From assembly GCA_017960565.1 (NCBI GenBank), contig JAGCYY010000021.1:1-47246 (forward strand): a DNA stretch of 47,246 bases. The letters are read 5' to 3'. Positions 1,204 through 47,246 of the stretch are shown here, piece after piece. This stretch comes from a bacterium (GTDB lineage: Bacteria > Bacillota_I > Bacilli_A > Izemoplasmatales > UBA1188). The first letter of the stretch is position 1; each line of letters opens with the position of its first letter. The position numbers and the translations under genes are program-made. The notes beneath the pieces were generated by a model, which had not been told where the DNA came from, did no database searches, and saw nothing but the letters and a program-made list of their open reading frames with translations.

Positions 1204-2799
1204 CTAGTCTTTTAATGAGTTTTTAATTAATCCTAAAAATAGAGGATGTGGTTTATTTGGACGTGATTTGAATTCAGGATGAAATTGTACACCAATAAAA
1301 TATTTTAATTTTGGTAGTTCAATTGTTTCAACAATATAGCCATCAGGTGATGTCCCACCTATTACCATACCATTTTCTTGGAAGATGTCTCTATAATCAT
1401 TATTAAATTCATAACGATGACGATGTCTTTCAGAAATGATTTTTTGTTTATAGCAACTATAAAGCAATGTATTATCTTTAACTAAGCATGGATAAGCACC
1501 AAGTCTTAATGTGCCACCCATATTGATTTTAGAATTTTGATCAGGAAGGAAGTTTATTACTTTATTAGTGCTATTTTCATCAAATTCTAATGAAGATGCA
1601 TCTTTTAAGCCACAGACATTTCGTGCAAATTCAATAACCGCAACTTGCATACCTAAACAAATTCCTAGGAATGGTAGATTATTTTCTCTTGCATATTTGA
1701 TCGCTATAATCTTACCATTTATTCCTCTTGTTCCAAAACCACCTGGTACTAATAGTCCATCTACATCAGATAAATAATCATTAACATTTTCTTCGGTAAT
1801 AGTTTCACTATCAATCCATTTGATATTTACTTTAGCGCTATGATAATAACCAGCGTGATGTAATGCTTCAACAACTGACAAATAAGCATCGTGAAGAGCT
1901 ACATATTTCCCAACAAGAGCGATAGTAACTTCCTTTTCTAGATTTTTAATACGATCAACCATATTTGTCCATTCTTTTAAATCTATCTCTTTTGTTTCTA
2001 ACCCTAGTTCTCTACAAACAACAGAAGAAAAATTTTGTCTTTCTAACATTAATGGTGCTTCATATAGAATTGGAAGTGTTCTATTTTCAATTACACAATC
2101 TTTTCTGACATTGCAGAATAATGCTATTTTGTTGAAGATTTTTTCTTCAAGTGGCTGATCACATCTTAAGATTATAATATCTGGTCTAACACCCATGCTT
2201 TGAAGTTCTTTGACAGAGTGTTGAGTAGGTTTGCTTTTGTGCTCATCACTTCCTGATAAGAATGGTACTAAAGTGACATGAATAAATAAACTATTTTCTC
2301 TTCCTACCTCTAAAGAGATTTGGCGAATCGCTTCAATGAACGCTTGTGATTCGATATCACCTATTGTTCCACCAATTTCAGTAATTACGATATCAGCATC
2401 GCTCTCACGCCCAACGTGATAAACGAATTCTTTTATTTCACTAGTAATATGTGGAACAACTTGAACAGTAGAACCTAGATATTCACCTTTTCGTTCTTTA
2501 TTTAGAACATTCCAATAAACCTTACCAGTTGTAAGGTTAGAATAACGATTTAAGTTTTCATCAATAAATCTTTCATAATGTCCAAGATCTAGATCGGTTT
2601 CAATACCATCTTCAGTAACAAAAACTTCTCCGTGTTGATATGGGGACATTGTCCCTGGATCAACATTGATATATGGATCTAATTTTTGGGCAATAACTTT
2701 TAGACCACGTGCTTTTAAAAGTCTACCTAATGATGCAGCTGTTATGCCTTTACCAAGGCCTGATACAACTCCACCTGTAACAAAGATATATTTTGTCAT
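1204..2799 (-). CDS. pyrG: CTP synthase
   Basis: Converts UTP to CTP using ATP and glutamine-derived ammonia. The 531-residue product has the N-terminal synthetase domain, with [17 protein letters not shown] at the start (P-loop) and the [13 protein letters not shown] segment. A C-terminal class I glutamine amidotransferase domain follows, with the nucleophile in GICLGMQ and the His-Glu pair in GVQFHPE. The start is put at 2799 because AAGAGG lies 8 bases upstream. An in-frame ATG at 2820 would add seven residues, overlap guaA and lack a binding site. The length is typical of the family (about 530-545). It lies 11 bases after guaA, in the same operon as glutamine synthetase, which makes its amide donor. 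Confidence 0.97.
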
Positions 2800-2810
2800 T
2801 GTAATACCTC

Positions 2811-4343
2811 TTATTCCCATTCCACAGTCGATGGTGGTTTGGATGTAATATCATATACTACTCTATTAACGCCTTTTATTTCATTTGTGATTCTAGAACT
2901 TATCTCTTCTAAAACTTCATATGGAATTTTAGTCCAAGTTGCAGTCATAAAATCATCAGTTGTGACAGATCTAATCGCAAGACAATATTCATAAGTTCTC
3001 TTATCACCCATTACTCCAACAGAATAAGTATTTGTTAAAACGGTAAAATATTGACTCGCACTCTTTTCTAAACCATATTTTATAAAAGTATCTCTAAGTA
3101 TCTTATCGCTATCTTGAGCAATTTTAATTTTTTCTTCAGTAATCTCACCAATTATTCTTACTGCTAAACCTGGTCCAGGGAAAGGCTGCCTATAAACAAA
3201 TTCATTTGGGAGACCTAGTTCTAGACCAACTTTTCTAACTTCATCTTTAAAAAGTGAAGATAATGGTTCAATAATTTTCTTAAAACCAATTTTCTCTGGA
3301 AGGCCACCGACATTATGATGACTTTTAATAGTTGCAGAAGAACCTTTTCCGCTCTCGATGACATCTGGGTAGATAGTTCCCTGCGCTAATACATCGATGC
3401 CATTAAGTTTTTTAGCTTCATTAATAAAGACATTGATGAACTCTTTCCCAATTATTTTTCTTTTTTCTTCAGGATTAGTTACACCTTTTAACTTCTCTAA
3501 GAAAATCTTTCTTGCATCAACTCTTATGAGATTAATATCAAATTTATCTCTAAAGAGTTTCTCCATTATATCGCCTTCATCCTTTCTTAAAAGCCCATGA
3601 TCAACAAACACACATGTGAGATTCTTGCCGATTGCTTTATTTAGTAGAAGGGCAACGACAGAAGAATCAAGCCCAAATGATAATGCAAGAAGAACTTTTT
3701 GATTTTTGAGTTCAGCCTTATATTTATCAATAGAACTGGTTGTAAAATTTTCCATTTTCCAGTTAGGTTCACATTTGCAGATAGATATCACAAAATTTTT
3801 TAAGATATCAATTCCAAATTCTGTATGTGTAACTTCTGGGTGAAATTGCACACCATAAATCTTTAATTTTTCATTCTCCATAGCTGCACAAGAACAATTA
3901 TCAGTTTTTGCTGTAACCATAAATCCATCAGGAATAGTATCTACATAATCTTTATGACTCATCCAGCAAATAGAATCCTTTTTAATTCCCGCAAATAATG
4001 GACTTTCATTTTTATAGACCATTATTTTACCGTATTCACTATTTTTTACTGTGGATTTAATCTTTCCACCTAGTAAAAATCCAATAAGTTGATGACCGTA
4101 ACAGATTCCAAGGATTGGAATACCAAGTTTGAAAATATCTTTAGATATTTTTGGTGATAGGGGATCATTCACACTATTTGGACCACCAGTAAATATGATT
4201 CCTTTATATCCATTTTCTTTAATTTTGTCTAAACTTATATCATCAAAATTAATTATTTCAGCATATACATTTAGCAAGCGTACTCTTCTTGCGATAAGTT
4301 GATTATATTGTCCACCAAAATCTAATACTAATATCTTATCCAT
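2811..4343 (-). CDS. guaA: GMP synthase (glutamine-hydrolysing)
   Basis: Makes GMP from XMP, ATP and glutamine. The N-terminal amidotransferase domain (about 1-190) has GICYGHQ with the catalytic Cys and GVQFHPE with the His-Glu pair. The ATP-pyrophosphatase domain follows, then the dimerisation domain ending in the usual KPPSTVEWE tail. The 510-residue length is normal. Odd point: the pyrophosphatase PP-loop reads SFGLDSS, where the family motif is SGGVDSS; a Phe replaces the first Gly (bases 3669-3689 on the minus strand, re-read and confirmed). The rest of the protein looks intact. The binding site GAGGA overlaps the purB stop, with 12 bases between the genes. Confidence 0.96.
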
Positions 4344-4355
4344 TGCTTTAATTCC

Positions 4356-5807
4356 TCATTTTGCAATAGGTATTTCAATACCTAGCAATTCCTTGTTTTC
4401 TTCTAGAATAGATTTTACATCATTATTTAAGAAGAAATCAACTTGTTGAATAGATATGCCAATATATTTATCTGGCTTTAGATATTCATCCATTTTAGCT
4501 TTGTCAATTCCAAGTTCTTTGATAGAAGAAATTTTTAGAAATAGATCATTGTCAAGGCCATCTTCTTTAACTCTTTTTAAAGTTTCTAAAGAGAGTTTAC
4601 GGATTTCTTCATGCACATTTTGTCTATCTTTTCCATTTTTAACATTATCCATTAAAATGTTTTCTGTAATCATAAATGGAAGTTCATCTTTTAAATGCTT
4701 TTCAATTATTTTTTTATTGACTACAAGACCAGATGAAATATATATTTCTAAATCGAGAATTGCATCAACAGCAAGGAACCCTTCTGAAATCACAATTCTT
4801 CGGTTGGCAGAATCATCTAAAGTTCTCTCTAACCATTGTGATGCGTGAGTGAAATTTGCACTAGTAGCACTTGAGATAACGAATCTTGCTAAAGAGTCAA
4901 TACGTTCAGATAGAATAGGATTTCTTTTATATGGCATAGCTGATGAACCAATTTGATGTTTAGTAAATGGTTCTTCAATCTCTCGCAAGTGTTGAAGCAA
5001 GCGAATATCATTAGACATTTTTGCTGCAGATGATGCTATAGCTGATAAAATATTATAAACTCGAGAATCAACTTTTCTAGAATATGTTTGTCCAGAAACA
5101 GTATATGTATCACTAAAACCCATTTTTTCAGCAATTAATTTATCAAGTTTTACTGGTAGATAATCATCACCAAATAATTCTTTAAAAGATGCCTGAGTAC
5201 CAGTAGTTCCTTTTGAACCTAAAAGTTTTAGTGAAGAACATATATAATCTAAATCTTTAAGATCTACTAAAAAATCTTGAATCCATAATGTAGCTCTTTT
5301 GCCAACAGTAGAAGGTTGTGCAGGTTGAAAATGTGTGTATGATAAAGTTGGTAGCGCCTTATATTCACAAGCAAATTTAGAAAGAATCGATATGAGATTT
5401 ACTAATTTCTTTTTGAGAACCTTAAGAGCGTCTCTCATGATGATAATATCTGTGTTATCAGTGACATAAGCGCTAGTTGCACCAAGATGAATGATACCTT
5501 TCGCTTTTGGACATTTTAGGCCAAATTCATAGATATGACTCATCACATCGTGATGAAATTTATTTTCATATTCAGAAACAATATCATAATCAATGTCATT
5601 TATATGTTCCTTCATTTCATCAATCATGTCTTTTTCGATAACTGGCTTAGAACCTTCTTTTAGTCCTAGTTCCATTTCAGATTCAGCAAGTGTAACCCAT
5701 AATTTTCTCCAAGTTGAATATTTATTATTTGGACTAAATAGGAATTGCATCTCTTTAGATGCATATCTTATAGAAAAAGGACTGATATATTTATTTTTGT
5801 CATCCAT
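4356..5807 (-). CDS. purB: Adenylosuccinate lyase
   Basis: Catalyses fumarate release from adenylosuccinate (AMP branch) and from SAICAR in de novo purine synthesis. The 483-residue protein has the fumarase/aspartase superfamily signature GSSAMPYKRNP and the conserved THFQPAQPST and TSAYVTDNTD segments. It ends in TGA, which shows TGA is a stop in this organism. At 483 residues it is a little longer than the short bacterial type of about 430 and closer to the longer, eukaryote-like type. It sits 7 bases after purA, the previous enzyme of the AMP branch. No other de novo purine genes are in the window, so its local role is probably IMP to AMP conversion. Confidence 0.96.
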   Translation of the reverse strand: MDDKNKYISPFSIRYASKEMQFLFSPNNKYSTWRKLWVTLAESEMELGLKEGSKPVIEKDMIDEMKEHINDIDYDIVSEYENKFHHDVMSHIYEFGLKCPKAKGIIHLGATSAYVTDNTDIIIMRDALKVLKKKLVNLISILSKFACEYKALPTLSYTHFQPAQPSTVGKRATLWIQDFLVDLKDLDYICSSLKLLGSKGTTGTQASFKELFGDDYLPVKLDKLIAEKMGFSDTYTVSGQTYSRKVDSRVYNILSAIASSAAKMSNDIRLLQHLREIEEPFTKHQIGSSAMPYKRNPILSERIDSLARFVISSATSANFTHASQWLERTLDDSANRRIVISEGFLAVDAILDLEIYISSGLVVNKKIIEKHLKDELPFMITENILMDNVKNGKDRQNVHEEIRKLSLETLKRVKEDGLDNDLFLKISSIKELGIDKAKMDEYLKPDKYIGISIQQVDFFLNNDVKSILEENKELLGIEIPIAK

Positions 5808-13002: not shown

Positions 13003-15192
13003 ATGGTTATATTAAAATTAGAAAACGTATCTAAAGTATACGAATTAAGTGCTGACAATGAAACATATGCCCTAAGTGAAATAAACCTTTCATTTGAAGA
13101 AAAAGGTCTATCATTCATTGTAGGAAGAAGTGGTTCTGGTAAAACCACTCTTTTAAACATTATTTCGGCAATTGATAGTCCAACATCTGGTGATATATTT
13201 TTATCATCAAATAGTTATAAAAACTTAAAGGACAAAGATTTTGAATTATTAAGAAATAAATATATAGGTAATATTTTTCAAGAATACTTATTAATCCCAT
13301 ATTATACGGTAGGAGAAAACATAAAAATTGCATTAGATCTAAATAGAGATGATTTAGATACTGATGAAAAGATTAATCTAATTAATGAAACATTAAAAAA
13401 AGTATCTTTAGTTGATAGTGATGGAAACACTTTTTATAATAGAAAAATATCAGAATTATCTGGTGGAGAAAAACAACGTGTAGCTATCGCAAGAGCCTTA
13501 ATAAAAAAACCAAAAATCCTCCTCGCAGATGAACCAACTGGTGCGCTAGACTATGAAACTGGAAAAGAAATTCTAAACCTTTTAAAAACAATTTCTTTAG
13601 AATGCCAAGTAATAATAGTATCGCACGATATTGAATTTGCAGAAAAATATGCAGATAGAATTATCAAACTGTCCGATGGCAAGATTGAAAGTGATACAAG
13701 TGATAGTATAGCTAAAGAAGAAATAAAAGAAGATCTATTTGAATCTTACAGCAAATCAAAAATCCCATTTAAAAGTTATCTCAAAATGGGACTTTATGGT
13801 TTTAAGTATAAGAAATTTAGATTATTTCTAACCATTATAATCCTATTGATAACATCTTTTATTTCATTTTTTCTAATAACGATACTTGATATGAACATTT
13901 CGAATGCTTCAATAAAGAATGCATATAGGAACTTTGGATATGCTTTTCTTGAGGGATATGGTCAAGAAACACCAGATAAATTTAATGATTACACATATAT
14001 TGAATACGACAAAAACAATTTAAAAAAAGAATATATAAAAGATTATGGATGCATTCCTGTTTTTTCTTTTGATGATGAAAGTTTTATAAAAACAATTCCT
14101 CTTTCAAAAAACACTATTGAATATTATAGAAGCCAAGAAATCTTTTTAAATAACCCATCATTCGATAATATTATTAGAACCGATTTACTTTATATTAGTT
14201 GTGGTATGGAATATGATGATAATTTGCCACTTGAAGTAGATTCTAGATTTGTTGATAAAGATTTATGCCATCCACCAATGACAATTAATGAAATTGCTCT
14301 TTCTGATATTAAAGCACAAATATATATGGATCTTGGGTTTGTCGATGAACATAATAACATAATTGAAATAAATACACCTGATGATTTAATAGGTAAAAAA
14401 ATAGGTGATTTTACTATATGTGGTGTATATTCAACCCCAGAAAGCAAAATCATATTTGAAAAAAGATTAATTTGGAATTCAAATAATAAGTATGATCCTA
14501 TTGAGAATGCAGTCATAAATGGACTTGATTTTGCAATTTCATCAAAGTGGTTTTACTGTAATGATTACATTGAAAAAGTAAAAGCGCAAAACATTGAAGG
14601 CGATGAACTAATAGACATAGAAGTTAGTAATCAATATATACTTCCATCAAATAAAAGTATAATCGAGGATATTAAGTTTATTAAAAATATAACTTTTAAA
14701 GATGACTTCAACGTACTTAATACGATGACTGCGTCAACTATTTTTACAAGCAATGTGGATTTTATTATTGATGCCAAGGAGTATGTAGAAACAACATTCA
14801 TTTTAGTTGCTATATTAATAGTTTTTATCTTATTGACATTATTAGAATTAATGATCTATTTAAATGTGACAATAAGTAGAAGAAAGAAAGAATTCTCAAT
14901 ACTTTTATCTTTAGGTGCTGGTTTTAAAGATTTAAGAAAAATTGTTTTAATAGAAAGCATTTTTACATGCTTAATTCTTTTAGTTTTATTGTACTTACTC
15001 TCTTTTGTTTCATATTCTATTATTAATGCAAAGATTTTTATTATTCCAGTTTTAAGCATTGGAACTTTAATGATAGTAATTTCAATAGTCTTGACAATAG
15101 GCTTTTCTTATTTTTCAACCCTTATATCGAGTTTAACAATCAAAAAGATTTCTCCGAAAGAAATGCTAATTATTTCTAATGATATTGAATAA
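13003..15192 (+). CDS. ABC transporter ATPase-permease fusion (MacB/FtsX type)
   Basis: The first 230 residues are an ABC ATPase: Walker A GRSGSGKT (41-48), Q-loop Gln93, signature LSGGE (152-156), Walker B ILLADE (172-177) and switch His208. One transmembrane segment follows near 268-293, then an extracellular domain of about 330 residues and three C-terminal segments, which is the FtsX/MacB permease plan. Such fusions act in peptide or lipoprotein export or in antimicrobial-peptide resistance; the substrate here is unknown. The start at 13003 has no clear binding site. Part of the extracellular domain (14321-14462) is almost identical in DNA to the next gene. Confidence 0.88.
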   Translation: MVILKLENVSKVYELSADNETYALSEINLSFEEKGLSFIVGRSGSGKTTLLNIISAIDSPTSGDIFLSSNSYKNLKDKDFELLRNKYIGNIFQEYLLIPYYTVGENIKIALDLNRDDLDTDEKINLINETLKKVSLVDSDGNTFYNRKISELSGGEKQRVAIARALIKKPKILLADEPTGALDYETGKEILNLLKTISLECQVIIVSHDIEFAEKYADRIIKLSDGKIESDTSDSIAKEEIKEDLFESYSKSKIPFKSYLKMGLYGFKYKKFRLFLTIIILLITSFISFFLITILDMNISNASIKNAYRNFGYAFLEGYGQETPDKFNDYTYIEYDKNNLKKEYIKDYGCIPVFSFDDESFIKTIPLSKNTIEYYRSQEIFLNNPSFDNIIRTDLLYISCGMEYDDNLPLEVDSRFVDKDLCHPPMTINEIALSDIKAQIYMDLGFVDEHNNIIEINTPDDLIGKKIGDFTICGVYSTPESKIIFEKRLIWNSNNKYDPIENAVINGLDFAISSKWFYCNDYIEKVKAQNIEGDELIDIEVSNQYILPSNKSIIEDIKFIKNITFKDDFNVLNTMTASTIFTSNVDFIIDAKEYVETTFILVAILIVFILLTLLELMIYLNVTISRRKKEFSILLSLGAGFKDLRKIVLIESIFTCLILLVLLYLLSFVSYSIINAKIFIIPVLSIGTLMIVISIVLTIGFSYFSTLISSLTIKKISPKEMLIISNDIE
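14321..14462 (+). repeat. Near-identical 142-base segment, copy 1
   Basis: It aligns without gaps to 15924-16065 with 5 differences by eye (about 96% identity), including third codon positions. The flanking parts of the two genes match only at protein level. Confidence 0.9.
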
Positions 15193-15221
15193 ATGAATTT
15201 TTCTATAAATTTGTATGTCTA

Positions 15222-15250
15222 TTGAATATTTCAATATTAGATGTTAACAT
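15222..15250 (+). promoter_or_regulatory. Candidate promoter of the stand-alone permease gene
   Basis: TTGAAT (15222-15227) and TAACAT (15245-15250) are 17 bases apart. This is the same spacing and -10 string as in front of the ABC fusion gene. The binding site AAAGGAGAGG follows before the start codon. Confidence 0.45.
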
Positions 15251-15286
15251 TAAGATAAGAAGTATATTTGAAAGGAGAGGTAATTT

Positions 15287-16756
15287 ATGAATCAAGCAAT
15301 TGATAATGTTTCTGATAATAAAGAAAATAAATACACATTTTCTTTTAAAGAATGTTTTAAAACAAGCATATCTAGTTTTAAATATAAAAAAAGTAAACTA
15401 TTTCTTACAATCTTATGCCTCATTATAGTTATGGTTCTTATCGGATCAATAACTATGTTTTACGATGCAAACCCAAATAAAGCTGCATTAAAATATGCAT
15501 ATAAAAACACAGGCTATGTTATTTTAGATGCTTACTATGCAAAAGAAGCAAAATTTGATAGCAGTTTATTTAGTAAATTAAAAATGCCAATACTAAAAAC
15601 ATATACTAAACAAAAAAATTATGATATAAATGCCGTAAGTACTGACATTTTTAATAAATTAATGGACTATGGAACAGTTCCAATATTTAACTATGACATT
15701 AAATATAGAGAATCACTTCCGATTACAAACGATGAATTTGAAAAGACATTTTTATATTATCCTACTGATAATGTAATGAAAATTTCTTTAGCAAATTCAA
15801 ATTCTTGTACAGAATATAGTGATACTCTTCCACTTGAAATAGATTCAAGATTTATAGACAAAAGCCTATGTCATCCACCAAGAAATAAAACAGAAATAGC
15901 TATCACAGATATTAGAGCGCAAGTATATATGGATCTTGGGTTTGTCGATGAAGATAATAATATAATTGAAATAAATACACCTGATGATTTAATAGGTATA
16001 AAAATAGGTGATTTTACTATATGTGGTGTATATTCAACCCCAGAAAGCGAAATTATATTTGAAAATAGAAATAATCAATTAATTGTTGGTGAAATAATAA
16101 AACATAGTATTGTTGGAGATGATAATGCGAATATTCTTGCGACGAAATGGATAATGTATAATGGGTTTGCTAAAAGCGAACTTGAAGGGACTGCTGATGA
16201 GTCATTTTCTAATACTGGTCGATTTATACTTCCAACTATTAATAGTGTAAGAAAAGATTTAAAATTTATCAATAATCTATCTAAAAAAGAAAATAATGAT
16301 ACTTATTTTATGATTGATTGTTTAACATTACATACTAATAATGTAATGGAAGCCAACTATGAATCAAAATTAGTTATGCTTTTCTTCCCACTAATCATAT
16401 CTTTTGTTTTATTGATTATTATTTATTATATCTTCCTTTCAAAATATATAAGAAAATTATTAACATCTAAAGAAAGCATATTCAAAGATCTTGCATTAAA
16501 AGGATATGATAAGCAAAATATTAAATGCACTATAATGATTGATGCCTTGATAATTAACATAATAGTAATGGTATTATTCTATATATTAACTATATTCTAT
16601 ACGAATTATATAAATAGTGTTTGGTTCATAGTTCCATATATAAGAATAAGTACATTTACTATCTTAACTTCAGCAATAATTCTTATAGTATATCCAATAT
16701 TAATTCCAATTTTTATGGATAAAAAGATAAACAATCTATATAATGCTGAATCCTAA
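15287..16756 (+). CDS. FtsX-like permease paralogue lacking an ATPase domain
   Basis: The 489-residue protein matches the permease half of the gene before it. SFKYKKSKLFLTILCL precedes the first membrane segment (about 37-57). A shared extracellular domain follows, with LPLEIDSRFIDKSLCHPP and GDFTICGVYSTPES, then three C-terminal segments. It has no ATPase motifs. It probably pairs with the upstream fusion protein so that one ATPase-bearing and one ATPase-free permease make a heteromeric exporter, but that is inference. It starts after the strong site AAAGGAGAGG, and 94 bases with their own candidate promoter separate the genes. Confidence 0.82.
   Translation: MNQAIDNVSDNKENKYTFSFKECFKTSISSFKYKKSKLFLTILCLIIVMVLIGSITMFYDANPNKAALKYAYKNTGYVILDAYYAKEAKFDSSLFSKLKMPILKTYTKQKNYDINAVSTDIFNKLMDYGTVPIFNYDIKYRESLPITNDEFEKTFLYYPTDNVMKISLANSNSCTEYSDTLPLEIDSRFIDKSLCHPPRNKTEIAITDIRAQVYMDLGFVDEDNNIIEINTPDDLIGIKIGDFTICGVYSTPESEIIFENRNNQLIVGEIIKHSIVGDDNANILATKWIMYNGFAKSELEGTADESFSNTGRFILPTINSVRKDLKFINNLSKKENNDTYFMIDCLTLHTNNVMEANYESKLVMLFFPLIISFVLLIIIYYIFLSKYIRKLLTSKESIFKDLALKGYDKQNIKCTIMIDALIINIIVMVLFYILTIFYTNYINSVWFIVPYIRISTFTILTSAIILIVYPILIPIFMDKKINNLYNAES
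15924..16065 (+). repeat. Near-identical 142-base segment, copy 2
   Basis: Partner of 14321-14462, 1603 bases apart in direct orientation. It encodes the same stretch of the extracellular domain. Confidence 0.9.
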
Positions 16757-19631: not shown

Positions 19632-20108
19632 TTATAATAGTTCTACAATGCTTTCTTCAATATCTTCAGGTTTAACAGCTGGTCCAAATCTCTTTACAAC
19701 TATGCCATTTCTATCAACTAAAAATTTAGTAAAGTTCCATTTAATATTTCCAAACAAGCCACCTTTTTGTTCATTTTTAAGGTATTTATATAGTGGGATA
19801 GCATTTTTGCCATTGACATTGATTTTTTGGAATTGTTTGAATGTTACACCAAATCTGCCCTTACAGAATGCTTGAATCTCTTCATCACTTCCAGGTGCTT
19901 GATTTAAGAATTGGTTGCATGGAAAATCTAAGATTTCTAAGCCTTTTTCTTGATATTTTTCATATAGATTTTGTAAACCTTCATATTGTGGAGTAAAACC
20001 ACAACCTGTTGCAGTATTGACTATAAGCAATACCTTTCCTTGATAATCTGCCATAGACACATCATTGCCTTTATTGTCTTTTACAGTAAATTCATAAATT
20101 TTTTTCAT
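19632..20108 (-). CDS. Glutathione peroxidase family thiol peroxidase (copy 1)
   Basis: Reduces hydroperoxides, probably with thioredoxin as in most bacterial members. The 158-residue protein has peroxidatic Cys36 in TGCGFT, Gln70 in FLNQAPG, Trp124 and Asn125 in KWNFTKF, and a likely resolving Cys82. Selenocysteine is not used. The start has the site GAAGGAG. It is the first gene of a two-gene operon with ohrR, under a TTGACA/TACAAT promoter whose -10 lies inside an OhrR-type box, so induction by organic peroxide is expected. A second, longer paralogue lies at 22363-22908. Confidence 0.93.
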   Translation of the reverse strand: MKKIYEFTVKDNKGNDVSMADYQGKVLLIVNTATGCGFTPQYEGLQNLYEKYQEKGLEILDFPCNQFLNQAPGSDEEIQAFCKGRFGVTFKQFQKINVNGKNAIPLYKYLKNEQKGGLFGNIKWNFTKFLVDRNGIVVKRFGPAVKPEDIEESIVELL

Positions 20109-22362: not shown

Positions 22363-22908
22363 ATGCGAGAATTTTATACTTATAGTGTAACTAAAAAAGA
22401 TGGTAGTAAATTAGATTTAAAAGATTTTCAAGGAAAAGTAGTTTTAATTGTCAATACTGCAACTGGGTGTGGTTTTACTCCACAATATGCACCAATTGAA
22501 GAGATGTATAAGAAATATCATAATAGTGGACTTGAAATTTTAGATATACCATGCAACCAATTCGGCCAACAAGCGCCTGGAAGTGATGAAGAGATTCATG
22601 AATTCTGCCAAATTCACTACAACACTACATTTGATCAAATGAAAAAGAGTGATGTAAATGGTGAAAATGAATTACCATTATTTAAATATTTAAAAAATGT
22701 ACAGCCATTTACTGGCTTTGGAGAAGGAAAAATGGCTGATTTATTAAGATCACTCCTTCCAACAATCGATCCTGATTATGAAAATAATAATGACATTAAA
22801 TGGAATTTCACTAAATTTTTAGTAGATAAAGAAGGAAATGTCGTTAAAAGATTTGAACCAACTCACGATTTAAAAGAAATAGAAGAACTAATAGAAAAAT
22901 TATTATAG
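22363..22908 (+). CDS. Glutathione peroxidase family thiol peroxidase (copy 2)
   Basis: The 181-residue paralogue of the peroxidase at 19632-20108 has the same catalytic residues: Cys36 in TGCGFT, Gln70 in FGQQAPG, Cys82, and Trp147 in KWNFTKF. It is about 23 residues longer, because of an insertion between the helix at 110 and the Trp motif (PFTGFGEGKMADLLRS region). It lies in the EAL-Hpt transcript, not under the OhrR box, so the two copies should be regulated differently. It probably uses thioredoxin as reductant. Confidence 0.93.
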   Translation: MREFYTYSVTKKDGSKLDLKDFQGKVVLIVNTATGCGFTPQYAPIEEMYKKYHNSGLEILDIPCNQFGQQAPGSDEEIHEFCQIHYNTTFDQMKKSDVNGENELPLFKYLKNVQPFTGFGEGKMADLLRSLLPTIDPDYENNNDIKWNFTKFLVDKEGNVVKRFEPTHDLKEIEELIEKLL

Positions 22909-41495: not shown

Positions 41496-42218
41496 ATGAT
41501 TGAGATATTATCGATTGCGATTGTTGAAGATGAAGAAAATGCTTATACAGAACTTCAGACAAGAATCGCAAAATATGAAATCGACAAAGGAATTAAAATA
41601 GAAATCGACTGGTTCAAAAACGCAGAATTATTGGTTGATAAATTTCAATCAAAATATGATGCAATCTTTCTAGATATTGATCTTCCTGGTGGGATGAATG
41701 GAATTCAAGCTGCGAAGAGAATCAGAGAAGTTGATGATAGTGTAATCATCATTTTTGTCACAAATATGAAACAATATGTCGTGAGCGGTTATGAAGTATC
41801 TGCCTTAAATTACATAATAAAGCCAATCAAATATCAAGCTCTTCATATGTCACTTGATAAAATAATTAGAATATCTGAATTGACCCAAAATAACCATATT
41901 CTCATAAAGACAAGCGGTTACATTGAAAGAGTCAACATAAATAGTATATATTACATAGATATATATAACCACGTTCTCACAATCCACACAACTACGAAAA
42001 AGATTGAAACTTATTCGACTCTATCAGATTTTGAAAATCGACTCAAAGATAATTTCTTTTTCAAAATTAACAATTACACTCTTGTCAATTTAAGGCATGT
42101 GAAGAGATTCACCACAAAAGAAATAATAATAAGTAATGGTGATAATCTTCAAATATCGAGAAGAAGAAGAAAAGATTTTCTTGATTCTTTAGTTAAATAC
42201 TCTGGTGAAATTCTCTAA
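41496..42218 (+). CDS. LytTR-family response regulator
   Basis: The 240-residue two-domain regulator has a receiver with acidic Glu11-Asp12, phospho-acceptor Asp60 in FLDIDLPGG and Lys109 in IIKP. A LytTR DNA-binding domain covers about 138-235 (INSIYYIDIYNHVLTIHTT, FFKINNYTLVNLRHV). LytTR regulators act on peptide or cell-envelope signals, usually with a membrane kinase; none is visible here. It lies alone under its own promoter, 306 bases upstream of the giant GH3 gene in the same direction, so that gene is a possible target. Confidence 0.92.
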   Translation: MIEILSIAIVEDEENAYTELQTRIAKYEIDKGIKIEIDWFKNAELLVDKFQSKYDAIFLDIDLPGGMNGIQAAKRIREVDDSVIIIFVTNMKQYVVSGYEVSALNYIIKPIKYQALHMSLDKIIRISELTQNNHILIKTSGYIERVNINSIYYIDIYNHVLTIHTTTKKIETYSTLSDFENRLKDNFFFKINNYTLVNLRHVKRFTTKEIIISNGDNLQISRRRRKDFLDSLVKYSGEIL

Positions 42219-42524: not shown

Positions 42525-45500
42525 ATGAAAAACAGAATTTTTAAACTTTCTGCATTACTACTTACTGTGGCTCTTGCTGTAGTATCTGTATTATGCTTAA
42601 GTTTAAATTCTAAAGCTATGCTTTTAGACAGAAAAGGCAAATATTATGCCGACTTCGACACTAAAGCTGAAGCTTTGGAATACGCTGATGAACTAAACAT
42701 TGAACTCTCAGCTGAAGGTAACGTACTTTTAAAGAATAATGGTATACTACCTCTTGCAAAAGGTTCAAAGGTTAGTGTATTCGGACGTGCACAAAACTCT
42801 TTAATCGGTGGAACAGCTGGTATGGGCGGTGGCGCTACTGTTGGTGGTACTGGTACAATCGGTGGTGTTCTATACGATTCAGGATTCCAAATCAATCCAA
42901 CTGTTGACCAACTTTATGCTTCTGGAAACGGTGGCATCGGTGTTGAAAAAGATATAAATCCAGCTAAAGATTCATTCTTCTGGTACAATGACGCCGCATT
43001 CATCGTTCTATCTAGAACTGGTGGTGAAGGTAAGGATCTTGATTTAGTAACTAGCGAACTCGCAGTATTAGAAAACGCTCAAACTCTTGTAGTTGGTACA
43101 CCTTACGATTTAGCTAGTGGCTCAGTTATTGAATATGATGGTGAATATTATTATACAACTAGCGCATTCAAGACTGACGTAGCATCTACAAAAGAAGATG
43201 TTAAAGCTGCTGCAACTCTCATCACTCCAACTCCAGTCGCAGTAGGTGACAAGAAGATCAATATCGCTACAGGTACTGTTGTATCTAATGGCGGTTTCAC
43301 TTATGAACTCGCAGCTCCACTCATGACTGCTGATTATTCTGGTGTTGCTGCTTTCTTAGGAAATAGTGAAAATGCAACTAGTGTAGCTTCTCCAACATCT
43401 TTAGTAATTGGTCAAAGAACTAGTTCACAAATCAATGCTGGCGCTTGGGTAATCTACGATGGAAAGTTATATCAATTAGCAAACAGAATAGCTAACCGTA
43501 CTACATTATCAGCCTCTAATATCGCAACTGCAATCGGAGAAAATCCTGGTTACACAATTACTACATTAGTTCTTGGCGATGAAGCTGCTGAATTTGCTGC
43601 TGGTACAGCTCTTTCTTATAATGGAGCTTACTATGTTCTACTTGCTGCTTACAACTATACTCCAGATACAGTAGGTTTAACTGCTGAATTAATCGCTGCT
43701 GCATGTACAGCTGAAACTAAGATTACTCCAGCAGAAGTAGAGATTGGCGTTGAAAAGAATTATGCAAAAGGCGAATACTGCTTAGTTGATGCTGCAATCT
43801 ACAAATTCAACAATGCATTCAGATTAATCGGCACAACTAAAGGTATCACTCTAGAACAAATCAAAGCTCTCGTTGAAGCTGGAAACAAAGCTTACGCTGA
43901 TGGTTTCGAACATGCTGCTCTTGGTAAACAAGGTGCTGTAACTAAATGGAACCTCTCTAACGCTATGGGTCCTGCTAACGGACAAACTGGTAGTATTGAT
44001 GCTCTCTCTGAAGGTCCATATGTAAAACACTATTTACAACTTACTAATAGTGAAAAAGCTTTAATTGAAAATGTTAAAGCTAACTTCAAGAACATCGTTA
44101 TTATCTTAAATACATCTAACGCTATGGAAGTTGGTGACCTCCAAGATGACCCAGCAATCGGTGCAATCATTTGGATTGGTAGACCTGGTTCAACTGGTCT
44201 AAAAGCATTCGGTAAGATCATCAATGGTGAAGTTAACCCTTCTGGTAGACTTGCTGATGAATGGTTCAGAGATTTCACAGCTGATCCAACATGGCAAAAC
44301 TACGCTAAGAACATCCAAGTAGGTTCTGCTCACTTATATATCTATGACTATACAAGTGATGATGCTAAAGCTCACAGTGTTCCAACTCCAGTTATTTCAT
44401 CTGGTACAGTTGCCGGTGAAGGTTTCTATGGTATCGACTATGATGAAGATATCTATCTAGGTTATGGTTATGCTGAAACTGTATATCAGGAAATCTTAAA
44501 TGGCAATATTGAAGATGATCCAGCAACAGGTAACCCAATCGCTGGTGATACTGTACTAGAAATGGCTGACAATTGGTTCCATGACAATGTAGTATATCCA
44601 TTCGGATATGGTCTATCTTATTCTAACTTCAAGATGACTGTTGGTGATGTATATTACAAGACTGGTAATACTAAAACTAAACTTGCTGCTAGCGTTAGCC
44701 CAGCTCTATTCAGTTCAGCTCCTGGCGCTCCTGCACAAGTAGAAAAATTATATGTTCCTGTAACTGTTACAAACGTTTCAGGTCTCCCTGGCAAACAAGT
44801 AGTTCAAATCTATGTAAGAGCTCCTTACATTGATGGCGAAATTGAAAAGACTGATAAAGTATTAGTAGGATTTGAAAAGACTAACTTACTTGCTCCTGGT
44901 GTATCTCAAACATTAGAAGTTGCAATCAATGTTCAAGACTTCGCATCATTTGACTGGAAAGATGCTAATGATAATGATAATAGAGGATATGAATTAGATC
45001 CAGGTGCTTATGAAATCATCGTTGCTTCTAACTCACACGAAGAAGATGATTCATATGCATTCACAATCAGCGGCGCTGATGCTGCTCTTCTAAAGATTGA
45101 TGACTTCAGCCACAATGAAATTATCCCTCTATTCTCTAACCATGATATGTATGATTCACTCCGTATTAACTACCCTGAATATACAGGCGATAAAGAATGG
45201 TTAAGAATTAATACAACTGATGCTAACCAAGTACTACTCTCTCGTAGCGATATGAATGGAACATATCCAGAAACTCAAAGTATTGCTGAAAGAACAGTAA
45301 CTAATGATTTCATTTATGCAGTTCTTTACTACAACAACTACTGGAATGGTGGTGCAAGACAATATTGGTATGATGATCAAACTTCATATTACTATAGTGC
45401 ATACGCTAGTGGAGTTGGTGTTGCTGACTGGTATAAGACAGAAGAACAATACAAAGCTTTAATGGCTGGTTGGACTCAAATCTCAGCTGTTGACAATAAT

Positions 45501-47246
45501 GAAACTTATACTCAACTCCATGAAATGTCAGGTATCAACCTATACATGGAAGATGGTTCAATCAATCCACTTTGGACTACATTCATGAACCAATTAACAT
45601 GGAAGAATATCTGTGATGTTGTTAACCATGGTTCACATACAACTTATGCAGTATCTCACATCGGTAAGAAGACTGCATCTGATGAAAACGGCCCTAACTC
45701 ATTCAATGGTAAGAGCTGGTGTGATGAAGTAGTTCAATCATCTACATGGAATAAAGAATTATTATACGAATATGGTGTAATCAATGGTGACTTATGTATG
45801 CTCGCTGTTACAAACCCAGCTTCAACTAAGGAAACTGGTTGGTATGGCCCAGGCTTAAATAACCACCGTTCTCCATTTGGCGGACGTAACAATGAATACT
45901 TCAGCCAAGATGGTATCCATGGTGGATATGTTGCTGCTGCAGTAGTATCTGGTGCTCAATCTAGAGGTGTTAACGTATATATTAAACATATGTATGGTAA
46001 TGACCAAGAAGAGAACAGATCAAGAGAAGCTCTATTCACATGGTTCTCTGAAGCTGCTCAAAGACAAATCTACGCTAAATCATTCCAAATGGCAATGCAA
46101 GAAGGTGGTGCTACAGGATGTATGACAGCTCTAAACCGTATCGGTAGAGTTGTATCTTCTGCAAACTACAACTTCATTACTAGACTCGTAAGAGATGAAT
46201 GGGGATGGGAAGGCGCATTCGTTACAGACTACTATGGTAACAACTCAATGGTTCAAAATAACATGGACTTACTCTTAAAGGTTGGTTGTGACCTCCCTGA
46301 TGGAACTGCATCAAGTGGACAAGATCCAGTATCTGGTACTTGGGGCGCTGATAAAGTTGGTGTTGGTACAGAATTAGCACCAAGCGGCGCTGTATACTAC
46401 AATAGAACTGTATATCCAGATCTATTCTCAACTGGAAGTGCTTACGCAATTGATGATACAGTAGAATATGAAGGCAAGTTCTACAAGTTCACTGCTGCTC
46501 ATGCTGCTGGTGCTTGGAACGCTGAAGAAGCAACTGAAGTTGCTGAAAATACTCTACCAAAAGCTGATTACGTAGACTTATCACAATGGTACTATGCTCG
46601 TATGGTTGCAATGAGAGTTCTCTATGTTGCTGCTAATACATTAAATAATGAAAACGGTGTAAGAGTAACTGGTTTCGGTGCTACATATTCTGATTTAGCA
46701 CAAGGAACTGCTGCTAACTTATCAATCGCAATTGATCCATCTATGTTAAATGGCGAAACAGTAACTTACGCTGTAACAAGTGGTACACTCCCTGCTGGTC
46801 TTTCACTCAATGCTACAACTGGTGCAATCACTGGTACTCCTCTTGCTGTTGCTAACAACACAAGTGTAACAATTTCTTACACAGTTGCTAAGTACATCAT
46901 TGGTACTGGTACATTCAGATTTACTGTTGCATCTTCATTCGCTCTTGGCGAAGGTGAAGACGCTGCTTCAACTGGAACAGAATATACTGGTACAATTGCT
47001 GGTCTTGCAAATGCTAGTTATGCTCTTGCTGAAGGTTCAGCTCTCCCTGCTGGTCTAACACTTGCTAATACTGGTGCTATTACTGGTACTCCAACTAAGT
47101 CTGGTACATTCAACTTCACAGTTAATGCTACTGTTGGATCTGGAAACAACGCTAAAGTATATCCAGTTGCTTTAAGAATTACTGTAACTGGTGAAGATAT
47201 TGTTCAACCTGAAATGCCACAATATATCGCAGAAGAAGGATATCTA
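42525..47246 (+). CDS. Giant secreted permuted GH3 glycoside hydrolase (runs off the window)
   Basis: 1574 codons are open to the window edge, with no stop. Residues 1-31 are a signal peptide. The GH3 sandwich domain comes first (AEGNVLLKNNGILPLAKG near 63; SRTGGEGKDLDL near 170). Five tandem modules of about 55 residues interrupt it (about 187-456), then it resumes (VIILNTSNAMEVG, NPSGRLADEW). A fibronectin-III-like domain follows (about 745-850). The TIM-barrel domain comes last, with GPGLNNHRSPFGGRNNEYFS, Lys1154-His1155 in IKHMYGNDQEENR and probable nucleophile Asp1235 in FVTDYYG (SDW is commoner). A sixth module lies near 1302-1340. Two He_PIG-like stretches (LPAGLSLNATTGAITGTP, LPAGLTLANTGAITGTP) begin near 1420 and 1510. 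Reversed domain order is known in some beta-glucosidases. A glucosidase or related exo-acting activity is likely; the substrate is unknown. Confidence 0.92.
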   Translation, partial: MKNRIFKLSALLLTVALAVVSVLCLSLNSKAMLLDRKGKYYADFDTKAEALEYADELNIELSAEGNVLLKNNGILPLAKGSKVSVFGRAQNSLIGGTAGMGGGATVGGTGTIGGVLYDSGFQINPTVDQLYASGNGGIGVEKDINPAKDSFFWYNDAAFIVLSRTGGEGKDLDLVTSELAVLENAQTLVVGTPYDLASGSVIEYDGEYYYTTSAFKTDVASTKEDVKAAATLITPTPVAVGDKKINIATGTVVSNGGFTYELAAPLMTADYSGVAAFLGNSENATSVASPTSLVIGQRTSSQINAGAWVIYDGKLYQLANRIANRTTLSASNIATAIGENPGYTITTLVLGDEAAEFAAGTALSYNGAYYVLLAAYNYTPDTVGLTAELIAAACTAETKITPAEVEIGVEKNYAKGEYCLVDAAIYKFNNAFRLIGTTKGITLEQIKALVEAGNKAYADGFEHAALGKQGAVTKWNLSNAMGPANGQTGSIDALSEGPYVKHYLQLTNSEKALIENVKANFKNIVIILNTSNAMEVGDLQDDPAIGAIIWIGRPGSTGLKAFGKIINGEVNPSGRLADEWFRDFTADPTWQNYAKNIQVGSAHLYIYDYTSDDAKAHSVPTPVISSGTVAGEGFYGIDYDEDIYLGYGYAETVYQEILNGNIEDDPATGNPIAGDTVLEMADNWFHDNVVYPFGYGLSYSNFKMTVGDVYYKTGNTKTKLAASVSPALFSSAPGAPAQVEKLYVPVTVTNVSGLPGKQVVQIYVRAPYIDGEIEKTDKVLVGFEKTNLLAPGVSQTLEVAINVQDFASFDWKDANDNDNRGYELDPGAYEIIVASNSHEEDDSYAFTISGADAALLKIDDFSHNEIIPLFSNHDMYDSLRINYPEYTGDKEWLRINTTDANQVLLSRSDMNGTYPETQSIAERTVTNDFIYAVLYYNNYWNGGARQYWYDDQTSYYYSAYASGVGVADWYKTEEQYKALMAGWTQISAVDNNETYTQLHEMSGINLYMEDGSINPLWTTFMNQLTWKNICDVVNHGSHTTYAVSHIGKKTASDENGPNSFNGKSWCDEVVQSSTWNKELLYEYGVINGDLCMLAVTNPASTKETGWYGPGLNNHRSPFGGRNNEYFSQDGIHGGYVAAAVVSGAQSRGVNVYIKHMYGNDQEENRSREALFTWFSEAAQRQIYAKSFQMAMQEGGATGCMTALNRIGRVVSSANYNFITRLVRDEWGWEGAFVTDYYGNNSMVQNNMDLLLKVGCDLPDGTASSGQDPVSGTWGADKVGVGTELAPSGAVYYNRTVYPDLFSTGSAYAIDDTVEYEGKFYKFTAAHAAGAWNAEEATEVAENTLPKADYVDLSQWYYARMVAMRVLYVAANTLNNENGVRVTGFGATYSDLAQGTAANLSIAIDPSMLNGETVTYAVTSGTLPAGLSLNATTGAITGTPLAVANNTSVTISYTVAKYIIGTGTFRFTVASSFALGEGEDAASTGTEYTGTIAGLANASYALAEGSALPAGLTLANTGAITGTPTKSGTFNFTVNATVGSGNNAKVYPVALRITVTGEDIVQPEMPQYIAEEGYL
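43081..43893 (+). repeat. Five tandem ~165-base (55-residue) modules inside the GH3 sandwich domain
   Basis: Units start near 43081, 43228, 43395, 43560 and 43725. Each reads roughly V-h-G...(8-10)..G..h-x-Y-D/N-G-x-Y-Y-x-h-x-x-A, then a Thr/Ala-rich helix-like part ending near ITP. Examples are GSVIEYDGEYYYTTSAF, GAWVIYDGKLYQLANRI and GTALSYNGAYYVLLAAY. They are divergent at DNA level. The 'G..V.Y.G..Y' core resembles CBM5/12-like carbohydrate-binding modules, but the assignment is not certain. Confidence 0.7.
46425..46545 (+). repeat. Sixth, isolated module in the GH3 barrel domain
   Basis: AYAIDDTVEYEGKFYKFTAA followed by HAAGAW has the same core as the five tandem modules and an even closer likeness to CBM5/12 domains (D/G-D-x-V-x-Y-x-G-K-x-Y ending in G-x-W). 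It lies after the nucleophile segment and before the last helices of the barrel domain. Confidence 0.65.

Follow-up and report, generated by a model that had tools for sequence, protein, structure and literature searches.

The open reading frame at positions 42525-47246 (+ strand, as are all features of P0001 below) of the window, the whole 47,246-nucleotide stretch of gut-bacterial DNA analyzed here, encodes a permuted GH3 protein (P0001) in which the loop following the catalytic acid/base residue carries a tandem array of five homologous units. We interpret these units as diverged modules of the CBM5/12 type, and the full array was found in three genes from two species of one genus. Domain insertion beside an active site is a known route to changed specificity, and the GH3 cases described in the literature consulted carry one PA14 domain.

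A permuted GH3 protein

The reading frame is open-ended, running for 1574 codons (1574 aa) without a stop to the end of the contig. Pfam places Glyco_hydro_3_C at residues 502-647, Fn3-like at 759-837, Glyco_hydro_3 at 1114-1238, CBM_5_12 at 1302-1335 and two He_PIG domains after residue 1399. This order, sandwich - FnIII - barrel, is that of a permuted GH3, and bears out the reading of the earlier note that the sandwich domain precedes the barrel. From the N-terminus, P0001 consists of a signal-peptide-like segment recognized by sequence reading (residues 1-31, 42525-42617), the first part of the sandwich domain (residues 33-173, 42621-43043), the second part of the sandwich domain as delimited by Pfam and the structure model (residues 501-700, 44025-44624), a Pfam-defined FnIII-like domain (residues 759-837, 44799-45035), an FnIII-barrel linker (residues 861-1010, 45105-45554), the barrel domain as defined by Pfam and alignment (residues 1011-1378, 45555-46658), and two He_PIG Ig-like domains matched in Pfam (residues about 1399-1530, 46719-47114). 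The linker is a site of modules in relatives, and the Pfam search returned no match for residues 861-1010 of P0001. Among PDB entries, GlyA1 and the beta-glucosidase of P. barengoltzii, both permuted GH3s, are closest to P0001 in sequence (phmmer) and in fold (Foldseek). The permuted domain order was first reported for the rumen enzyme GlyA1 (PDB 5K6L-5K6O, cow rumen, PMC5104943), which, as in P0001, has the arrangement sandwich-FnIII-barrel with the acid/base in the sandwich and the nucleophile in the barrel.

Both a phmmer alignment and a 23-member alignment (A1) pair E168 of P0001 (43026-43028), which is invariant in 23 relatives, with the GlyA1 acid/base E143 (PMC5104943), and D1235 (46227-46229) with the nucleophile D709. 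Four members of the GlyA1 subsite -1 set (D532, R597, K630, H631, R641 and Y677) are kept in P0001, where R1121, K1154, H1155 and R1165 match R597, K630, H631 and R641, and two are changed. GlyA1 D532 is replaced by N1055, an asparagine common to the three array-bearing enzymes and also present in L047. The position of Y677, which is Phe in nearly all relatives, is occupied by L1203, a leucine again common to the array-bearing trio. From the retention of E168, D1235 and the four other pocket residues, we infer that the enzyme is active, possibly with altered specificity; the two subsite -1 changes may mean that activity or specificity differs. These two altered positions, together with the Ig-like domains and the collagen-like stalk of a homologue, which resembles those of the Scl and Lcl adhesins, could also be taken to mean that the protein is mainly an adhesin, that is, a GH3 scaffold with little or no catalysis that displays carbohydrate-binding modules on a collagen stalk. 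We consider this highly improbable, given that P0001 retains both catalytic carboxylates along with the four other pocket residues, and that the barrel is among the slowest-evolving parts of the protein.

Five homologous units in the acid/base loop

The segment lying between E168 and L505 comprises 336 residues in P0001. Across 22 compared relatives, the same loop has 16-30 residues in 14, 43 in one, 69 in one, 91-92 (one unit) in four, and 335-336 in the two array-bearing homologues. The insert of about 270 residues in the sandwich domain is present as claimed in the earlier note, lying between SRTGGEGKDLDL and the rest of the sandwich, with the helix LTNSEKALIENV ahead of the strand VIILNTSNAM. 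Residues 187-460 form five homologous units of 50-57 residues, namely U1 (residues 187-236, 43083-43232), U2 (residues 237-291, 43233-43397), U3 (residues 292-346, 43398-43562), U4 (residues 347-403, 43563-43733) and U5 (residues 404-460, 43734-43904). A return loop (residues 461-500, 43905-44024), modeled with low confidence, leads from the array back to the sandwich.

We assessed the homology of the units with a leave-one-position-out test, in which each unit position of three homologous inserts was scored by an HMM trained on the remaining four, with 1000 shuffles for comparison. The held-out units score 9-49 bits, and for any unit no more than 1 in 1000 shuffles attains the observed score. 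U1, U2, U3 and U5 are defined by unit homology, the HMM test and AlphaFold2; U4 is defined by the HMM test, and its counterparts in two homologues weakly match PF02839 on their own. AlphaFold2 modeling of the insert alone predicts five repeats of a beta-hairpin plus helix at a mean pLDDT of 82. In this model, residues from about 184 to 461 mostly have a pLDDT of 82-95, the return loop (462-501) is of low confidence, and the unit-to-unit placement is uncertain (pTM 0.58). The array units also appear, at lower confidence, in a 1200-residue model; the whole-protein model is only fair, with a pLDDT of 70. Thus, the view that small tandem modules are inserted in the sandwich domain is upheld by the HMM test and the predicted hairpin-helix units, and residues 187-456 do appear as separate small units in the AlphaFold2 prediction. 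An assembly artefact was ruled out, as the whole array is present in three separate genes of two genomes. A simple DNA tandem repeat was likewise ruled out, as a DNA repeat search was empty at the unit length and the repeats are visible as protein only.

Kinship with CBM5/12 modules and a probable position at the pocket rim

The hairpin half of the units has a Y..G..V.YnG..Y pattern, a motif in common with the N-terminal half of the CBM5 and CBM12 chitin-binding modules (2RTS, 1ED7; CjCBM5, PMC8449059). Alignment of the units by hhalign with a set of CBM5/12-like modules from the same proteins (A4) gave 91% over 23 columns. For each of the three homologous inserts, the top-ranking Pfam family is CBM_5_12 (E 5e-4, 1.7e-5 and 0.012), with whole-insert PF02839 scores of 20.5, 25.1 and 16.0 bits that all fall below the cut-off of 26.2. 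A PDB profile search with the insert placed chitinase CBM5/12 domains first, weakly (E 0.04-0.11), and plain HMM comparison of the units with a small CBM set was weak except for U4 of two homologues. By Foldseek, the predicted array matches the fold of CBM5/12-bearing phage proteins among viral models, named ChiC_BD or CBM5/12 (E about 1e-8 to 1e-7), and in the PDB mainly chitin deacetylases and chitinases (E 0.017 or worse, low TM-scores). A phage origin of the array was rejected: no relative was found in viral contigs, searched with patterns from the insert ends only, and there was no meaningful PHROGs match either; the viral fold matches reflect a common module type only.

Chitin-binding CBM5 modules use a surface aromatic pair (Y-W or W-W) and a core Trp (PMC8449059). 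Unlike CBM5 and CBM12, the array units have a helix for the C-terminal half, and the aromatic pair and core Trp are absent by sequence from all five. The 274 residues of the array contain one Trp, in U3 and away from the CBM5 position, and 2-5 tyrosines in each unit. We take the units to be diverged members of the CBM5/12 type, in which the lack of these aromatics means that sugar binding cannot be assumed.

A further CBM5/12 module, identified by PF02839 and loop comparison, lies in the barrel (residues 1297-1341, 46413-46547) and passes the PF02839 cut-off of 26.2 with 30.8 bits in P0001 and 41.7 in the homologue. It carries a Trp. The module is situated between the GCDLPDG segment, which comes after the nucleophile, and the last barrel helix, a site that we take from GH3 topology to be the beta8-alpha8 loop. 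In TIM barrels, the beta-alpha loops lie on the catalytic face. The sandwich acid/base loop of GlyA1 faces the pocket. By this combined geometry, the array loop and the barrel-module loop would both rim the active site. Genus relatives have CBM5/12-like modules in the FnIII-barrel linker instead. The barrel module, the two He_PIG domains and the anchor described below are absent from the earlier note.

The reading we favor, and to which we give about an even chance, is that P0001 is a secreted, surface-tethered, exo-acting GlyA1-like beta-glycosidase with its active-site rim loaded with CBM5/12-type modules. The five modules in the loop after the acid/base and the one in the beta8-alpha8 loop would form a collar beside the pocket, which would limit entry to the pocket and hold an insoluble glycan, plant-derived or other, with its chain ends close to the catalytic site, while a collagen-like stalk would hold the enzyme off the cell. 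The suggestion of the earlier note that the array could present substrate or sit over the cleft is plausible. Alternatively, the array may be a structural spacer or steric lid made of CBM5/12-derived modules without sugar binding, which would restrict pocket access or space neighboring domains. The loss of the canonical binding aromatics in the five units is in keeping with this, as are the PA14 inserts in GH3 sandwich domains, which cover the active site and add a +1 residue (PMC9426481; PMC5104943). However, the 2-5 tyrosines per unit could stack on sugar, a five-fold array exceeds the need of a lid, and the Trp-bearing barrel module is retained alongside, so we regard a spacer or lid as somewhat unlikely.

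The favored reading, a rim loaded with modules, has partial counterparts among characterized enzymes. In GlyA1, the acid/base is followed by about 12 residues with no CBM-like insert, and the sole extra domain is C-terminal. The PA14-containing GH3s K. marxianus BglI, DesR and S. scabiei BcpE2 (PMC9426481) resemble P0001 in carrying a separate domain in the sandwich beside the active site, but they are not permuted and have one PA14 domain, with a module fold other than that of P0001. In BcpE2, the PA14 domain (404-548) precedes the catalytic Glu582, whereas the P0001 insert follows the acid/base. Other surface enzymes of gut bacteria have a catalytic fold interrupted by CBMs, much as that of P0001 is by CBM5/12-like units. 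SusG contains CBM58, and among the Xyn10C-like GH10 xylanases Pm25 contains two CBM4 modules (PMC7848910); the inserted CBM4 pair in the GH10 xylanases raises activity on insoluble substrates (PMC7848910). Pm25-type enzymes are endo-xylanases with the insertion in the beta3-alpha3 loop of a TIM barrel and CBM4 modules of shown binding, in contrast to the GH3 sandwich loop and the five much smaller CBM5/12-like units of P0001. A literature search of open-licence papers found no case of a GH3 with CBM inserts. The five-module loop array of a GH3 is thus an addition to the PA14 GH3s and CBM-bearing GH10s, in which domain insertion by the active site is already known.

Distribution, history and the C-terminal end

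The array-bearing genes are P0001, a second copy that lies in the same genome on another contig, C5 (72-73% identical), and a copy in genome G003 (84%), the coordinates of which match the sheep-rumen genome RGIG6850. No further genome carried the full array in searches covering 90 genomes of the order, 395 of the class and 392 of the phylum, samples that overlap and amount to about 880 genome slots altogether. The arrangement, which might already have been a common one, is therefore rare, with three genes in about 880 overlapping genome slots. A class-level match (G376) was set aside as a marginal match in a prophage-like locus, and matches in plasmid records were to the GH3 core only. One-unit forms occur in G003 and G005, so that the genus presents a series of zero, one and five units at one catalytic loop, with other relatives carrying modules in the linker or barrel. 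This series lets one ask by deletion what array growth beside a catalytic residue does to an enzyme, and it supplies natural components from which enzymes with substrate-holding collars could be built.

In a phylogeny of the enzyme core, enzymes with five units and those with one fall on separate, well-supported branches with zero-unit members between them, although support is low (80/69) at the node where the zero-unit L048 member joins. Given these separate branches, a single gain with losses or two gains may each fit the tree, and growth from a one-unit form is only one possible origin of the array. In the L048 member (1256-5275), the 69-residue acid/base loop accommodates about 50 residues (residues about 180-230) of another kind of insert, rich in tyrosine, which suggests that this loop may be a general insertion site.

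The array has a dN/dS of 0.26-0.40 compared to 0.13-0.16 for the barrel, with synonymous sites partly saturated, values that point to an array under purifying selection and evolving faster than the barrel. The higher ratio of the insert, the different insert in the same loop of the L048 member and the variation in unit number (0, 1 or 5) are what would be seen if the array had expanded neutrally, as an insertion that a fast-evolving loop tolerates and that has no specific role. We consider this improbable, as the dN/dS of the whole insert is well below 1 and three diverged genes of two species have each retained all five units. A more elaborate proposal, to which we likewise assign a low probability, is that the acid-carrying loop is a growth site for tandem modules, where a five-module arm would move with or feed the acid/base loop and tune the turnover or processivity of the exo-enzyme, with further modules at other rim loops in sister enzymes.

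The window contig (C6) and contig C5 share their final 141 bases without a difference (47106-47246 and L041 17860-18000), and both contigs break at the same point in the gene family. The contig end is thus an assembly break, as expected where an assembler meets common sequence. The stop and anchor anticipated downstream are not in this contig, and the anchor is seen indirectly, in a sheep-rumen homologue (L011) of 84% identity in which a collagen-like Gly-X-Y stalk (PF01391, 62 bits) precedes a C-terminal membrane segment, the protein ending GCGSVIGISAVMISGLAICGAALALRRKERE. The P0001 contig stops upstream of the corresponding region. Other genus members have C-terminal ends like that of L011, and P0001 probably shares this type of stalk and anchor. 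A known sorting signal as the anchor was rejected, with no NCBIfam C-terminal sorting model at cut-off. Downstream of the homologue, L011 13439-14329 contains a lipoprotein-like gene with repeated YRFDGWY...LYAKW units.

The two copies in the same genome differ in their upstream genes, with a LytTR-type response regulator at window positions 41496-42218 and an AraC-type gene at L041 12289-13059; an AraC-type gene is also found upstream in L011. Synteny links the C5 copy to the G003 gene, though in sequence the C6 copy is closer to that gene. Elsewhere in the window, two adjacent ABC-permease-like genes (13003-16756) have a near-identical stretch, FVDE.NNIIEINTPDDLIG.KIGDFTICGVYSTPES.IIFE, and two glutathione-peroxidase-like genes (19632-20108 and 22363-22908) lie less than 3 kb apart in this 1.3 Mb genome.
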